Source of the DNA: Arcobacter sp. EP1
GTDB lineage: Bacteria > Campylobacterota > Campylobacteria > Campylobacterales > Arcobacteraceae
Assembly: GCA_001655195.1 (NCBI GenBank)
Contig: LPNY01000042.1
Coordinates: 375,627 to 439,626, forward strand
Length of the DNA: 64,000 nucleotides
Reading direction: 5' to 3'
Positions 37,306 through 42,994 of the stretch are shown here, in pieces. Numbering within the stretch: the first letter of the stretch is position 1; every line of letters starts with the position of its first letter. The position numbers were made by a program, and so were the translations under genes. The notes below the pieces were generated by a model. It worked only from the letters and a program-made list of their open reading frames with translations. It searched no databases and was not told the origin of the DNA.

Positions 37306-38294
37306 TTAAACTGTCCTAATAATCGTAAATCACTTTCAAATAAAGAGCGTAAGTCTCCAATGTTATGAATAAGCATTGCAAATCGTTCAATTCCTAATCC
37401 AAAGGCATAGCCAGAATAGTTCTCATATCCTACTGCTTTAAATACATTTTCATCAACAACACCACATCCAAGAACTTCTAGCCATCCTGTGTGTGAACAG
37501 ACACGACATCCGTCACCCTTACAGAATACACATGAGATATCTACTTCTGCAGATGGTTCTGTGAATGGAAAAAATGATGGTCTAAATCGTACTTCAACAT
37601 CACCAAACATATGATGTAAAAACTCTTCTAGAACATGTTTTAAATTTGCAAAAGATACTTTGTCTGCTTCATCAACTACCAGTGCTTCAATTTGGTGAAA
37701 CATAGGTGTATGAGTTAAATCGAAATCTCGTCTAAAAACAGTCCCTGGTGCAATCATTCGAATTGGCGGTTTTTGAGATAACATTGTTCGAATTTGAACA
37801 GGAGATGTATGTGTTCGTAAAAGCGTATAGTCTTTATTGTAAAAAGTATCTTGCATATCTCGTGCAGGGTGATACTTTGGTAGATTTAGTGCTTCAAAGT
37901 TATGGAAATCATCTTCAACTAGTGGACCCTCTTCAACTGAGAAGTTAAGGTTCTGGAAATATTGAATAATTCTATCCATTGTATCGACAGTAGGGTGAAC
38001 TGCCCCACAAGTTAATTCATTGTTAAATCGAGTAACATCGATTTTTTCACTTTCTAATTGCTTGTTTAAAGCCTCTTTTTCTAAGTCTACTTTACGTACT
38101 TCAATAGCATTTGCAACGGCAGCTTTTTGCGTGTTAAGATTTTGTGCAAATGCTTTTTTCTCTTCATTTGGTATATCTTTAAGTCGTGCAAACTCTTTTG
38201 TTAGAGTTCCTTTTTTCCCTAAGATATCAACTCTTAAGGTTTCTAAGGTTTCTAGTGAGTCTGCGTTTTCAATTTGGGTAATCAACGCTTCCAA
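37302..38294 (-). CDS. pheS: phenylalanyl-tRNA synthetase alpha subunit
   Basis: Catalytic subunit. 330 residues: coiled-coil N terminus, class II motif 2 ([26 protein letters not shown]), a four-Cys zinc-like segment ([17 protein letters not shown]) seen in many PheS, and motif 3 ([14 protein letters not shown]). TTG start at 38294 behind GGAGA. First gene of the minus-strand operon; a long inverted repeat lies just upstream. Confidence 0.97.
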
Positions 38295-38316
38295 AAAAAT
38301 CTCCTAATCTCTTTTG

Positions 38317-38380
38317 CGTAGTAAGATATAATCATTTATCTAAGCCTAAAATGTTTAGAAAATAATTACATCTTACTACG
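38317..38380. repeat. 64-base imperfect inverted repeat between pheS and hinT
   Basis: CGTAGTAAGAT (38317-38327) and ATCTTACTACG (38370-38380) are perfect 11-bp arms. Inner segments TAAT/ATTA, ATTT/AAAT and TCTAA/TTAGA extend it to about 24 paired positions with two mismatches and a bulge, loop near 38344-38354. It begins 22 bases upstream of the pheS start. It may be a leader hairpin of pheST, an operator or a small decayed mobile element. Confidence 0.5.
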
Positions 38381-38442
38381 TCTATAAATACTTATTTATT
38401 ATAAGGGCAATGATTATACTTAAAGATTTATTAGAGTTTGGT

Positions 38443-38448
38443 TATAAT
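38443..38448 (+). promoter_or_regulatory. hinT -10 element
   Basis: GGTTATAATCA contains TATAAT 41 bases before the hinT ATG; TTAAAG at 38420-38425, 17 bases upstream, is a weak -35. It probably drives hinT and the following aldolase, kinase and cupin genes. Confidence 0.55.
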
Positions 38449-38489
38449 CATTTTTATATGAAATATCATCGATTTAAAAAGGATTTATA

Positions 38490-38825
38490 ATGTGTATTTT
38501 TTGCAAAATTGTAGGGGGTGAAATCCCAAATAAAACTGTCTTAGAAAATGATAACTTTTTAGCTTTTGAGGATATTAATCCGTCAGCAAAAGTTCATGTA
38601 TTAATTATTCCAAAAGCTCATTACGACTCTTTTGATGTAACACCACCTGAAATCATAGGTGAAATGACATCGTTTGTTCAGGACGTTGCGTCAAAATTAG
38701 GTGTAAAAGAGAGCGGATATCGAATTATTACAAATATTGGAAAACATGGTGGTCAAGAAGTACCCCATTTACATTTTCACCTTTTAGCGGGTGAATATGT
38801 TGGCAGATTAGTAGGGCAAAAATAG
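38490..38825 (+). CDS. HIT-family nucleotide hydrolase (HinT type)
   Basis: 111 residues: CIFCKIVGGEIPNKTVLEND at the N terminus and the histidine triad PHLHFHLLAG near the C terminus. HinT proteins hydrolyse purine phosphoramidates such as AMP-lysine. Divergent from pheS, as in C. jejuni (from memory). The stop touches the ATG of the aldolase gene, so it is transcribed with the sugar-type cassette. Confidence 0.93.
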   Translation: MCIFCKIVGGEIPNKTVLENDNFLAFEDINPSAKVHVLIIPKAHYDSFDVTPPEIIGEMTSFVQDVASKLGVKESGYRIITNIGKHGGQEVPHLHFHLLAGEYVGRLVGQK

Positions 38826-39995
38826 ATGAAGAGTTTGTTTAATGATAAAGAAGCATTATCTTATGGTTCTGATGTTGCGATGCGAGTTTATACTTCACGA
38901 CTTTTAGGACAAGATTCAAATCTTGTTTTACACGGTGGAGGAAATACATCTGTTAAATCAAAGGTAGATGGCGAAGAGATACTATTTGTAAAAGGAAGTG
39001 GTTGGGATTTAGCAACTATTGAAGAGCCAGGTTTTGCACCTGTTAAATTAGATCCACTAATTGAAATGGCAAAACTTGATGCTTTAAGTGATAGTGATAT
39101 GGTAAAACAACAACGGGAAGCTATGATTGATGAAACTGCTCCAAATCCTTCTATTGAGGCAATTTTGCATGCAATTATTCCTTTTAAATTTGTTGATCAT
39201 ACTCACTCTGATGCAGTGGTGACTATTTCAAATACTCCTAATGGTGAAGCTATTATTAAAGAGCTGTATCCTAATTTTTTGATTGTTCCTTATGTTATGC
39301 CTGGATTTATTTTGGCAAAAACTATTTACGATATGAGTAAAGATTTAGATTGGTCGCAATGTGAAGGTATGATTTTGCTCAATCATGGAGTTTTTACTTT
39401 TAATGAAGATGCCAAAGTAGCTTATGAAGATATGATTAAAGCTGTTACTATTTCTGAAGAGTATTTAGAAAAAAATAGTTCAATACAAGTTGTAAAAAGT
39501 CAAGAAAAAGGTTTTGATTTTACGCAGTTACAAAAAGCTGTAAGTAGTGCGAAAGGTTTTGAAGTTAAAATGCGAATCAATCAATCACAAACAGCAGTTA
39601 CATTTGCTTCTCAAGATAGTGTTGCACAACTTGCTAAAAAAGGTATCTTAACGCCTGAACATATTATTCGAACAAAACGATTTCCCCTACTTGTAGATGA
39701 AAATATTAGTGCTTCACTAGAAAATTATATGCAAGAGTATGAATCATACTTTAATACTTTTGCTACTGATGAAATCTGTTTAAATAAAGCACCCAATTGG
39801 GCAATTATTCCTAATGTTGGAACGGTGAGTTTTGGTAAAAATGAAAAAGAGTGTCAAGTGATTGAAGATATTAATAATCATACAATGGATGCAATTTTAA
39901 AAGGGGAGTGTTTAGGTGGTTTTGAATCTATTAGTTTAAAAGATGGATTTGAAATGGAGTATTGGGAACTTGAACAGGCAAAATTAAAAAAGTAG
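38826..39995 (+). CDS. class II aldolase/adducin family protein
   Basis: 389 residues. Metal and catalytic residues of class II aldolases are visible: substrate loop LHGGGNTSVKSK near 36-46, Glu111 (NPSIEAILHA), His125 and His127 (DHTHSDA), and His187 (LLNHGVFTF). The sequence resembles the aldolase half of RhaD-type bifunctional rhamnulose-1-phosphate aldolase/dehydrogenases, without the dehydrogenase half. The substrate is unknown; the next gene is an LsrK-like kinase, so a phosphorylated ketose is likely. Its ATG follows the hinT stop with no gap. Confidence 0.83.
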   Translation: MKSLFNDKEALSYGSDVAMRVYTSRLLGQDSNLVLHGGGNTSVKSKVDGEEILFVKGSGWDLATIEEPGFAPVKLDPLIEMAKLDALSDSDMVKQQREAMIDETAPNPSIEAILHAIIPFKFVDHTHSDAVVTISNTPNGEAIIKELYPNFLIVPYVMPGFILAKTIYDMSKDLDWSQCEGMILLNHGVFTFNEDAKVAYEDMIKAVTISEEYLEKNSSIQVVKSQEKGFDFTQLQKAVSSAKGFEVKMRINQSQTAVTFASQDSVAQLAKKGILTPEHIIRTKRFPLLVDENISASLENYMQEYESYFNTFATDEICLNKAPNWAIIPNVGTVSFGKNEKECQVIEDINNHTMDAILKGECLGGFESISLKDGFEMEYWELEQAKLKK

Positions 39996-40003
39996 GAATA
40001 AAC

Positions 40004-41566
40004 ATGAAGTATTTATTAGCTATTGATGCAGGAACAGGAAGTATTCGTGCTGTTTTATTTGATACTAAAGGGAAACAAATAGAGGTTTCACAACAGGAGT
40101 GGACGCACAAAGAAGAGCAGGGCGTGCCAAACTCCATGACTTTTGATTGTAAAACAAACTGGAAAAAAGTGTGTGAATGTATTGTTGATGTTGTTAAAAA
40201 AGCAAAAATAGATGCCAAAGATATTATCTCACTCAGTGCTACTAGTATGCGTGAAGGAATTGTGCTTTACGATAAAAATGGAAAAGAACTTTGGGGTGTT
40301 GCAAATGTTGATGCACGAGCTTCAAAAGAGGTAGAGTTTTTAAATAAAAAGTTTAAAAACCTTGAAAAAAAGTTTTATAAAACTTCTGGTCAAACCTTTG
40401 CTTTAGGGGCACTTCCACGAATTTTATGGGTTAAAAATAATCTTCCAAATGTCTATAAAAAAACAGCTAATGTCTCTATGATTAGTGATTGGGTTTTAGC
40501 TAAACTCTCTGGACAAATTGCAACAGACCCTTCTAATGGTGGAACAACTGGGATTTTTTCATTAAAAAAACGAAAGTGGTCTTCAAAAATGGCAAAAGAA
40601 GTAGGGATAAAAAATAATATTTTCCCACCAGTACTTGAGAGTGGAGAAGTTCTTGGAACGGTTAATAAAGAAGCCTCTAAACAGACTGGATTATGTACGG
40701 ATACTCTGGTTGTTATGGGTGGTGGAGATGTTCAATTAGGCAGTGCAGGGCTTGGTGTTACAAAACTAGGTCAATGTGCAGTTATTGGAGGTTCTTTTTG
40801 GCAACAGGTGGTGAATATGAAATCAAATGTAACACCTCCTTCAAACATGAGTGTACGAGTGAATCCTCATGTGATTTCGGGACAATCTCAAGCAGAAGGT
40901 ATTACTTTTTTTAGTGGATTAATTATGCGTTGGTTTAGAGATGCTTTTTGTCAGTATCAAAAAGATAAAGCAAAACACATGAATATCGATGCTTATGCAC
41001 TATTAGAAAATATGGCAAGTAAAGTCCCTGTGGGTTCACATGGAATTATGCCAATTTTTTCTGATGATATGAAATATGGGAAATGGTATCATGCAGCACC
41101 CTCGTTTATTAATTTAAATATTGACCCAGAAATTTGTAATATTGCCAGTATGTTTAGAAGTCTACAAGAAAATGCAGCCATAGTAAGTGCTATAAATTTA
41201 ACTAAAATTGAAAAGTTTACTAAGGTAAATGTGGATGAAATTGTTTTTGCAGGTGGAGCGAGTAAAGGGCAGTTGTGGCCTCAAATCCTTGCGGATGTAA
41301 CTGGTAAAAAAGTTAAAATTCCTATAGTAAAAGAAGCAACTGCATTAGGATGTGCAATTTGTGCAGGTGTTGGAGCAGGTATTTATAAAGATATTGACAG
41401 TGGTGTAACTAAGTTAGTTAAATGGGATAAAAAGTTTAAACCTAATATGAAAAATCATAAAAAATATCAAGAGATAATTAATAACTGGAAGAAGGTGTAT
41501 AAGTCACAGATGGAATTGGTTGATAAAAATTTAACAACATCAATGTGGAAAGCACCAGGAATATAA
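40004..41566 (+). CDS. FGGY kinase, closely LsrK-like (autoinducer-2 kinase)
   Basis: 520 residues with an FGGY nucleotide fold: AIDAGTGSIRAVLFD at 6-20, SATSMREGIVLYD, VANVDARASKEVE, MISDWVLAKLSGQIATDPS, VNPHVISGQSQAEG, GLIMRWFRDAFC, YHAAPSFINLNIDP, the ATP-site VFAGGASKGQLWPQIL and C-terminal TTSMWKAPGI. These match E. coli LsrK, which phosphorylates AI-2 (DPD), almost block for block by memory. No lsrACDB, lsrR, lsrF or lsrG is present. True substrate may be AI-2 or another short ketose. Eight bases after the aldolase. Confidence 0.85.
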   Translation: MKYLLAIDAGTGSIRAVLFDTKGKQIEVSQQEWTHKEEQGVPNSMTFDCKTNWKKVCECIVDVVKKAKIDAKDIISLSATSMREGIVLYDKNGKELWGVANVDARASKEVEFLNKKFKNLEKKFYKTSGQTFALGALPRILWVKNNLPNVYKKTANVSMISDWVLAKLSGQIATDPSNGGTTGIFSLKKRKWSSKMAKEVGIKNNIFPPVLESGEVLGTVNKEASKQTGLCTDTLVVMGGGDVQLGSAGLGVTKLGQCAVIGGSFWQQVVNMKSNVTPPSNMSVRVNPHVISGQSQAEGITFFSGLIMRWFRDAFCQYQKDKAKHMNIDAYALLENMASKVPVGSHGIMPIFSDDMKYGKWYHAAPSFINLNIDPEICNIASMFRSLQENAAIVSAINLTKIEKFTKVNVDEIVFAGGASKGQLWPQILADVTGKKVKIPIVKEATALGCAICAGVGAGIYKDIDSGVTKLVKWDKKFKPNMKNHKKYQEIINNWKKVYKSQMELVDKNLTTSMWKAPGI

Positions 41567-41607
41567 ATTTATTTACTAGGTTAAAAAGTAGAGAGAAAAG
41601 GAAATAG

Positions 41608-41982
41608 ATGTATTTAACCAATGAAAATGATCATGAGTATAGATTTGGAACCCATGGGCCAAAATATTTAACCAATGGTCCTAAAATTGATATGGGGGTT
41701 GTAGTAATCACTGCAGGTGAATGCCACCCTTGTCATAAACATGTGCACCAAGAGGAGTCTTTTTTGGCCTTGGAAGGTGAATGTAATGTCTATGTTGATG
41801 GAGAACTTGTTGTGCTTAAAAAAGGGGATTATTTACGGTGTGATCCAGGAGAAGCACACCTATTTAAAAATGATTCAAATGAAGACTTTAAAGCTGTTTT
41901 TATTAAAGCAGCCCATGCCCAAGTAAAAGATTCTGTTTATATTGAGTGGGAGCCTGGGCAACCTTTTATTAAAGAAGACTAA
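41608..41982 (+). CDS. cupin-domain protein
   Basis: 124 residues, a single cupin: metal-binding motif 1 CHKHVHQEESFLALEGECNV (His and Glu ligands) and motif 2 YLRCDPGEAHLFKN. Such small cupins act as isomerases, dioxygenases or sugar-binding proteins. It is the last gene of the cassette with the aldolase and LsrK-like kinase, 41 bases after the kinase and behind AAAAGGAA, and it is followed by a strong terminator. Likely handles the same metabolite. Confidence 0.8.
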   Translation: MYLTNENDHEYRFGTHGPKYLTNGPKIDMGVVVITAGECHPCHKHVHQEESFLALEGECNVYVDGELVVLKKGDYLRCDPGEAHLFKNDSNEDFKAVFIKAAHAQVKDSVYIEWEPGQPFIKED

Positions 41983-42005
41983 CGAGAATTAAAAGGTAGA
42001 GATAA

Positions 42006-42039
42006 AAAAAGGGGAGAGTTAAACAACTCTCCCCTTTTT
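42006..42039. terminator. bidirectional intrinsic terminator between cupin gene and accA
   Basis: AAAAAGGGGAGAGTT (42006-42020) pairs perfectly with AACTCTCCCCTTTTT (42025-42039) around AAAC. With A and T tracts on both sides it can end the cupin transcript (+) and the accA transcript (-). Confidence 0.9.
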
Positions 42040-42055
42040 CTTTGATTCATAATGG

Positions 42056-42994
42056 TTATTCGTCAGTAAAACTACCTAAGCTCATAAGTTTTTCATAACG
42101 TTTTTCATGTCGCTCTTCTTTTGGTACAGCACTTAACTCTTCTACTGAATTTAAGAAATAATCACCTAATGCTTGAATTGCTTCATCTTTTTGACGATGT
42201 CCACCCATTAAAGGCTCATTGACTACATCATCAATTAAGTTTAACTCTTTTAAGTTTTCAGCAGTAATTTTTAATGAATTAGCTGCAGTCTCTGCTTGTG
42301 CTGGGTCATTCCATAAAATAGCAGCACACCCTTCTGGTGAAATAACAGCATATACTGAGTATCGCATCATTGCTAATTTATCTGAAACTGAAATGGCAAG
42401 TGCTCCACCTGAACCACCTTCACCAATAACAACAGATACAGTGATTGTATCAAGATTTGAAAATTCATATAAGTTTCTAGCAATAGCTTCAGATTGATTT
42501 CTCTCTTCAGCTCCTAAACCTGGGTATGCACCCGGAGTGTCTACAAGCATTAAAATTGGAAGGTTAAACTTTTCTGCTAATTTTGCAGCTCTTAGTGCTT
42601 TTCTGTATCCTTCAGGACTTGGCATACCAAAATTTCTTTTTAATTTGTTTTTAGTACCTCGACCTTTTTGTTCACCAATAACCACACATTTTTGTTCACC
42701 AATATATCCTAGGTAACAAACAATTGCTTGGTCATCTACATAGTGTCGATCCCCATGAATTTCATACTCATCATGCATTAAACCACGGATATAGTCCATA
42801 GCATAAGGTCTATCAGGGTGACGTGCAAGTTGAAGTTTTTGATAGTCGTTTAAATTAGTGAATGTTTTTTCAACTTCTTTTTGAAGTTTTTTGTCTAAAA
42901 TTTCCGCTGCATGTTCATCAGATTTTGTTTGTGCAACTATTATATCTTCTTCAATTTTTCTAATTTTTTCTTCAAACTCTAAATACGTTGCCAA
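42056..42994 (-). CDS. accA: acetyl-CoA carboxylase carboxyltransferase subunit alpha
   Basis: 312 residues, carboxyltransferase alpha: [68 protein letters not shown] (given in part) and [13 protein letters not shown]. Produces malonyl-CoA with AccBCD. TTG start at 42994 behind AAAGGACAACA. It follows fabF on the minus strand, giving a fabG-acpP-fabF-accA fatty acid cluster. Confidence 0.96.

Follow-up and report, generated by a model that had tools for sequence, protein, structure and literature searches.

LsrK travels with a class II aldolase across Campylobacterota: genomic evidence for a likely AI-2 disposal route in which LsrF is replaced

INTRODUCTION

How might a bacterium that carries a kinase for autoinducer 2 (AI-2), with no lsr transporter beside it, dispose of the molecule that this kinase phosphorylates? 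The question is raised by a 64,000-nucleotide stretch of Arcobacter sp. EP1 (contig LPNY01000042.1, positions 375,627 to 439,626; hereafter, the window), in which a class II aldolase, an LsrK-like kinase and a single-domain cupin are encoded in a row (Table 1). A first-pass annotation of this DNA had proposed that the set could phosphorylate AI-2, i.e., 4,5-dihydroxy-2,3-pentanedione (DPD), or a related short ketose and split it by a non-Lsr route. We consider it likely that the three genes supply the kinase, cleavage and accessory parts of AI-2 disposal, with the class II aldolase replacing the coenzyme A (CoA)-dependent thiolase LsrF. Genome evidence favors such a route, namely, an LsrK, an aldolase that co-occurs with it, and no LsrF; the enzymatic steps set out below are conditional.

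In E. coli, LsrG is annotated as the isomerase of phospho-DPD (P-DPD) and LsrF as the thiolase. LsrK phosphorylates DPD at C5 (PMC8016206). A 2008 survey recorded no LsrB receptor in the epsilonproteobacteria that it covered, and left open whether AI-2 is a signal or waste in these organisms (PMC2561040).

RESULTS AND DISCUSSION

The window kinase groups with LsrK

The window kinase scored 871.5 bits against the autoinducer-2 kinase model NF008187 (cut-off, 528), and fell far below the cut-off of each of the xylulo-, rhamnulo-, fuculo-, ribulo- and glycerol kinase models. Its best match among solved structures was E. coli LsrK (5ya0, E = 1e-186), to which it is 54% identical. All ten residues proposed to form the DPD pocket (T21, S91, M92, R93, D253, V254, F276, Q278, E308 and I310; PMC8016206) are kept in the window kinase, and likewise in each of the 34 Campylobacterota kinases compared; D253, E308 and R93 are common to other FGGY kinases, whereas M92, F276 and Q278 are not. 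A maximum-likelihood tree placed the window kinase within the LsrK clade (support, 100/99), beside other kinases from Campylobacterota and apart from AraB, XylB, RhaB, FucK and GlpK. Its named relatives at 65-70% identity are nearly all from Campylobacterota, Arcobacteraceae included. Judged by score, pocket residues and phylogeny, the window kinase is a genuine LsrK that would be expected to phosphorylate DPD. The likeness to LsrK reported at first pass is thereby borne out, and the tree groups the protein with LsrK rather than with rhamnulo- or xylulokinases.

HPr control of the window LsrK is probably absent, because E122 of E. coli LsrK, the HPr contact and proposed HPr switch, is replaced by Phe in the window kinase and mostly by Tyr in its relatives. 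One of the 34 kinases, a Campylobacterota-type LsrK encoded together with a cupin, comes from a binned genome labelled Algicola (L007:3490-5497), likely through misbinning.

Kinase, aldolase and ABM genes co-occur

We surveyed 61 genomes of the window's family and a second set of 150 genomes across the phylum, and found that the kinase, the aldolase and a small gene for an ABM-domain protein travel together across Campylobacterota, even when they are unlinked. More specifically, LsrK exceeded its cut-off in 26 of the 61 family genomes and the aldolase was present in exactly these 26, with no discordant genome; the probability of the two sets coinciding at random is 8e-18, before any correction for ancestry. 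Across the phylum, both genes were detected in the identical 11 of 150 genomes, again with no discordant genome. Co-occurrence tied the aldolase to LsrK in both samples. The two genes lie on different contigs in six genomes and 1-32 kb apart in several others, so adjacency alone does not explain their co-occurrence. In addition, five genera mix positive and negative species, and in each of them LsrK and the aldolase change together. The ABM gene was found in 23 of the 26 family genomes with LsrK versus none of the other 35 at the same score (Fisher, 7e-14), and in the same 11 phylum genomes as LsrK; it abuts the aldolase gene in 19 of the 23 family genomes. As luxS was present in 60 of the 61 family genomes and LsrK in only 26, AI-2 synthesis does not predict the kinase.

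An LsrG-like gene adjoins luxS, and neither LsrF nor LsrB reached its cut-off

The search of the window genome for luxS was positive, and an LsrG-like ABM-domain gene (243862-244146, minus strand) precedes luxS in the same orientation, at a distance of 69 bp. This pair (contig C76, the window's own contig, near 243270-244150; L175:5275-6147) is 170 kb from the aldolase-kinase-cupin locus. In another genome (G016), the ABM gene is about 1.5 kb from luxS. The proximity of the ABM gene to luxS links the pathway to DPD synthesis. In most Campylobacterota relatives, the ABM protein (94-95 amino acids [aa]) is encoded directly before the aldolase. LsrG was its sole NCBIfam match, below the cut-off. 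The ABM protein belongs to the LsrG superfamily, and its genomic context points to an LsrG function.

We obtained no match to LsrF in the 61 family genomes, the window genome included, and none over the cut-off in the 150 phylum genomes. Likewise, LsrB had no match over the cut-off in the window genome or in any of the 61 family genomes, so the search for an AI-2 receptor returned no LsrB at that threshold. LsrA, LsrC and LsrD, as well as LsrR, are absent next to the locus, no genome-wide search having been made for these four. The first-pass statement that no open reading frame for LsrACDB, LsrR, LsrF or LsrG adjoins the set therefore holds locally. For LsrG it does not extend to the genome, given the LsrG-like gene upstream of luxS. 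No full lsr operon came to light elsewhere in the genome (LsrF was without a match, and no LsrB match passed its cut-off). ABC transporter genes between the aldolase and kinase genes in two genomes (G013 and G041) were considered as AI-2 importers and rejected, since they look like a polyamine-type transporter.

Because LsrB remained below the cut-off and neither LsrACDB nor LsrR is encoded nearby, the set likely serves to salvage or remove DPD, either the cell's own or DPD that enters by other means, and not for classic Lsr signaling. The same chemistry could serve quorum quenching, in which incoming AI-2 would be degraded by LsrK and the aldolase so as to interfere with neighbors. Patchy presence of the set among close relatives, despite luxS in 60 of 61 family genomes, is consistent with such a use, whereas the lack of LsrB over the cut-off in the 61 genomes, the lack of a dedicated importer beside the set, and an ABM gene that adjoins luxS in the window genome, which points to the cell's own DPD, all argue against it; we regard quorum quenching as unlikely.

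The aldolase belongs to the PRK08324 family and keeps the expected metal ligands

The window aldolase matched Pfam Aldolase_II (PF00596; 69.5 bits versus 22.2, 4e-19) and NF006197 (473 bits, covering positions 1-410 of 583). These matches mark it as a stand-alone form of what is the N-terminal part in PRK08324 aldolase/SDR proteins. The RhaD/SDR rhamnulose-1-phosphate aldolase model (TIGR02632) was rejected at 209 bits against a cut-off of 567.75. Of the first-pass label "RhaD-like class II aldolase," the class was therefore retained and membership in RhaD/SDR was not. The protein resembles RhaD-SDR and PRK08324 proteins in being of the same family, and some Campylobacterota copies (genomes G012, G029 and G040) keep a fused SDR domain; it differs from them in having no SDR domain, in scoring far under the RhaD/SDR cut-off, and in its partners, LsrK and the ABM protein.

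The predicted metal and catalytic residues E111, H125, H127 and H187 are invariant in the Campylobacterota and lsr-operon homologues. They correspond to E73, H92, H94 and H155 of FucA in a motif match made by eye, the automatic FucA alignment being shifted at this place. A fold search with the predicted aldolase model returned 3m4r, FucA and DrdA; the resemblance of the model to FucA and DrdA is in the N-terminal domain, at a TM-score on the target of about 0.6.

These data also bear on a reading in which the set serves catabolism of a pentulose or deoxyhexulose (rhamnulose, fuculose or ribulose) through an LsrK-like kinase of shifted specificity. The aldolase shares its fold with FucA and RhaD, and its family with the RhaD/SDR proteins, as this reading would have it. 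Against that stand the rhamnulo-, fuculo-, xylulo- and ribulokinase models, all far below their cut-offs, the RhaD/SDR score (209 versus 568) and the lack of a sugar isomerase next to the set. Model scores led us to reject the rhamnulose and fuculose versions, and we judge the reading as a whole very unlikely.

A proposed pathway from DPD to dihydroxyacetone phosphate

In the AI-2 disposal that we favor, DPD would be released inside the cell by LuxS, the gene for which is present, and phosphorylated at C5 by LsrK, an activity expected from the kinase's identity. The ABM protein encoded upstream of luxS would then shift the carbonyl in the manner of LsrG, giving CH3-CO-CHOH-CO-CH2OP, and the aldolase would cleave this product into dihydroxyacetone phosphate (DHAP) and a two-carbon piece. 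The LsrG product CH3-CO-CHOH-CO-CH2OP bears the head group of DHAP, and class II aldolases hold that group on their metal. The window aldolase keeps the Glu and the three His expected for metal-dependent DHAP chemistry. A precedent is DrdA, a class II aldolase that holds DHAP on its metal and cleaves 5-deoxyribulose 1-phosphate to DHAP and acetaldehyde (PMC6079011).

Direct cleavage of the hydrated ketone would yield acetate as the two-carbon piece; alternatively, acetaldehyde would result if the ketone were reduced first, a step that would fall to the SDR domain which some relatives carry as a fusion to the aldolase. The fusions in G012, G029 and G040 would thus fit acetaldehyde, while the stand-alone window aldolase would fit acetate or need a separate reductase. 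As for the cupin, we would guess at an accessory role among the lsr enzymes, perhaps in helping the ring of DPD or P-DPD to open or in aiding isomerization of either compound.

A class II aldolase takes the place of lsrF in Sinorhizobium-type lsr operons

The first-pass annotation had confined the route to organisms not known to carry lsr systems. This did not hold, as Sinorhizobium-type lsr operons carry the same type of aldolase in place of lsrF. On pSymB of Sinorhizobium meliloti (L201:4911-13906), the genes lsrA, a permease gene, lsrD, lsrB and a class II aldolase gene diverge from a regulator gene, lsrK and an ABM gene, and no lsrF was found in this stretch. The aldolase is 39% identical to that of the window, and a phmmer search with E. 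coli LsrG marks the ABM protein as a clear LsrG homologue (6e-24). An order of lsrACDB and aldolase opposite lsrR, lsrK and LsrG is also annotated in Ensifer, Roseateles sp. XES5, Thalassospira and Alloyangia, and searches found the aldolase-type lsr order in Shinella, Tritonibacter and Sinorhizobium medicae. In Sinorhizobium, Ensifer, Thalassospira and Alloyangia, lsrB is directly followed by the aldolase gene, which takes the position of lsrF. Conversely, LsrF is present and the aldolase absent in enterics, Pleomorphomonas, Clostridia, Treponema and Lacticaseibacillus (lsr loci with the far end covered); LsrF and the aldolase were mutually exclusive over the lsr loci examined. In S. meliloti 1021 (NC_003078.1 645139-646464), the lsrK match spans residues 3-446 of 520 only, unlike in other strains, and this gene is possibly truncated or frameshifted.

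The operons also help in weighing an alternative in which the set handles another short 5-deoxy sugar, such as 5-deoxyribulose or methylthioribulose from by-products of S-adenosylmethionine, the kinase forming a ketose phosphate and the aldolase DHAP plus an aldehyde. DrdA and Ald2, the aldolase of the DHAP shunt, use such substrates (PMC6079011, PMC10986504), and relatives of the window aldolase elsewhere adjoin mtnA or lie near mtnK. However, the kinase falls in the LsrK clade and has all ten DPD-pocket residues, several of which are not found in other FGGY kinases, the same aldolase type occurs inside lsr operons that contain LsrB, and the ABM partner adjoins luxS. We consider this alternative improbable, though slightly less so than quorum quenching. 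The relatives in question are aldolase/SDR fusions of the same family, next to mtnA in Ruegeria and near mtnK in Rhizobium rosettiformans (L217:3741-6950, L220:5001-11275); their positions suggest that close relatives of the aldolase may be used in the DHAP shunt.

Weighing AI-2 disposal without LsrF

Several points weigh against AI-2 disposal by this gene set. The co-occurrence statistics control for ancestry solely through the within-genus changes. The window-genome ABM protein (29.9 bits) and its relatives (28-36 bits) miss the curated LsrG cut-off of 135, and an ABM profile built without the E. coli row and run against PDB reached LsrG at E = 1e-7, with other ABM proteins ranking first. 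No importer for AI-2 was identified, and none is dedicated next to the gene set; the window aldolase carries no SDR domain and has no identified SDR partner. The Campylobacterota and Sinorhizobium-type lsr aldolases form separate clades of the family, so that the parallel may be convergent and the substrates of the two groups could differ. Finally, it is genome evidence that supports the non-LsrF route well, and its enzyme activities are predicted. Either LsrF was replaced on two occasions, or a deep link between the aldolase clades is hidden by the sampling; whichever applies, the aldolase has ties to AI-2 genes in two phyla.

The swap of an aldolase for LsrF appears to be a second means of AI-2 disposal that is widespread and has been overlooked. 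We give about even chances to a broader proposition, namely, that there is a second form of AI-2 catabolism, independent of CoA, in which a class II aldolase forms DHAP from isomerized phospho-DPD, that the aldolase was recruited perhaps twice (in Campylobacterota and Alphaproteobacteria), and that in Campylobacterota this form recycles DPD, the LuxS by-product, inside the cell, as a route dedicated to its disposal and outside Lsr import. Full-text literature searches, with subscription papers outside their scope, turned up no paper that connects LsrK or AI-2 with a class II aldolase.

With the lsr systems of E. coli and Salmonella, the window genome shares a true LsrK by sequence, a candidate LsrG-like isomerase and the expected product DHAP, and in Salmonella enterica a cupin also follows lsrK. 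It differs from them in having no LsrF (apparently replaced by the class II aldolase), no LsrB over the cut-off, and no adjoining LsrACD or LsrR, and in that its genes are split between the luxS locus and the present one. The pSymB operon of S. meliloti and its relatives share LsrK, an ABM/LsrG protein and a class II aldolase in the place of lsrF; unlike the window, the pSymB operon has LsrACDB and a regulator and no cupin, and its aldolase (about 39% identical) is of a different clade. The DrdK-DrdI-DrdA salvage of 5-deoxyribose and the MtnK-MtnA-Ald2 DHAP shunt likewise proceed by kinase, isomerase and aldolase to DHAP and a short aldehyde (PMC6079011, PMC10986504), whereas the window kinase is an FGGY protein of LsrK type, the isomerase candidate is an ABM protein, and the substrate would be the dione DPD. 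The system is best described as a variant of AI-2 catabolism and should not be filed as an Lsr system, because two features that define Lsr were searched for, and LsrF gave no match in the family while the LsrB receptor/importer stayed below its cut-off.

If the proposal is true, disposal by an LsrK tied to luxS makes the question of signal or waste directly testable and supplies a marker gene set; it also explains how Sinorhizobium-type lsr operons complete AI-2 breakdown without LsrF, and means that the final step of signal degradation is exchangeable between a thiolase of class I fold and a metal aldolase. The hypothesis is cheap to test, and it bears on AI-2 as waste or signal in the Campylobacterota that carry luxS.

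The cupin is a known companion of lsrK

The cupin carries an HxH...E...H metal motif and a GPKYL motif, and a fold search with its AlphaFold model (predicted local distance difference test [pLDDT] score, 88.5) returned generic small cupins only. Within the family, it occurs solely with LsrK (6/26 versus 0/35; p = 0.004). Close relatives of the window cupin are encoded directly after lsrK where the lsr operon is complete, in Edwardsiella hoshinae, Salmonella enterica, Pleomorphomonas, Treponema, Clostridia and Lacticaseibacillus, and a RAST label reads "Cupin domain protein in autoinducer 2 (AI-2)-related operon" (PMC8876208). The association of the cupin with AI-2 is already known; the first-pass annotation was correct in placing a cupin beside the kinase, and the notion that it is new to AI-2 fell away, as Salmonella, Edwardsiella and Treponema, among others, already carry it after lsrK. 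The lsrK-adjacent "mannose-6-phosphate isomerase" of PMC3420918 may be the same gene.

The idea of the cupin as a simple stand-in for LsrG found no support, given that Salmonella, Edwardsiella and Pleomorphomonas have LsrG, LsrF and the cupin together; the presence of both cupin and ABM protein in the window genome, G013, G030, G040 and G041 also counts against such a substitution. In Clostridia and Treponema, with no LsrG in the stretches examined, it is possible that the cupin stands in for LsrG.

Two plasmids carry related arrangements. On a plasmid of Deinococcus psychrotolerans (L203:6683-10366), an MFS transporter gene adjoins lsrK and the cupin, with no LsrACDB nearby, and is a possible candidate for an AI-2 importer. 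A conjugative plasmid of Lacticaseibacillus paracasei (L204:676-9766) carries a complete lsr-type operon with the cupin and rbsD.

Layout of the locus

Open reading frames, Pfam and NCBIfam matches and the 15-pair hairpin agree with the aldolase-kinase-cupin order and strong terminator described at first pass (Table 1).

Table 1. Coordinates of the aldolase-kinase-cupin locus and its flanks in the window
Feature	Positions	Strand	Evidence or properties
hinT (HIT family)	38490-38825	+	Pfam HIT, 2e-28
Class II (metal) aldolase, 389 aa	38826-39995	+	Pfam Aldolase_II
LsrK, autoinducer-2 kinase (FGGY), 520 aa	40004-41566	+	NCBIfam NF008187
Single-domain cupin, lsrK-adjacent type, 124 aa	41608-41982	+	Cupin_2, 3e-15
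Intrinsic terminator closing the unit	42006-42039	+	15-pair stem, 4-nucleotide loop, T tail; -24.6 kcal/mol, z = -4.84

The start codon (ATG) of the aldolase gene directly abuts the stop codon of hinT. As to the hinT promoter claimed earlier, promoter-like sites in 38200-42200 are not enriched relative to shuffled sequences (13 found, 15.6 expected); the gene spacing suggests that transcription may start from that promoter. Adjacency of hinT to the aldolase or kinase gene was seen only in the window and in no relative examined, and hinT is probably the leading gene of the transcript and a bystander in function. The window gave no match to Rfam.

A recent horizontal gain of the locus, also suggested at first pass, did not find support in base composition, since the G+C content of the locus (about 32-36%) is the same as that of the window (27-38%), although presence in the family is patchy. 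The contig belongs to a 3.0-Mb genome, and the terminator that closes the unit faces a convergent gene for the acetyl-CoA carboxylase alpha subunit.

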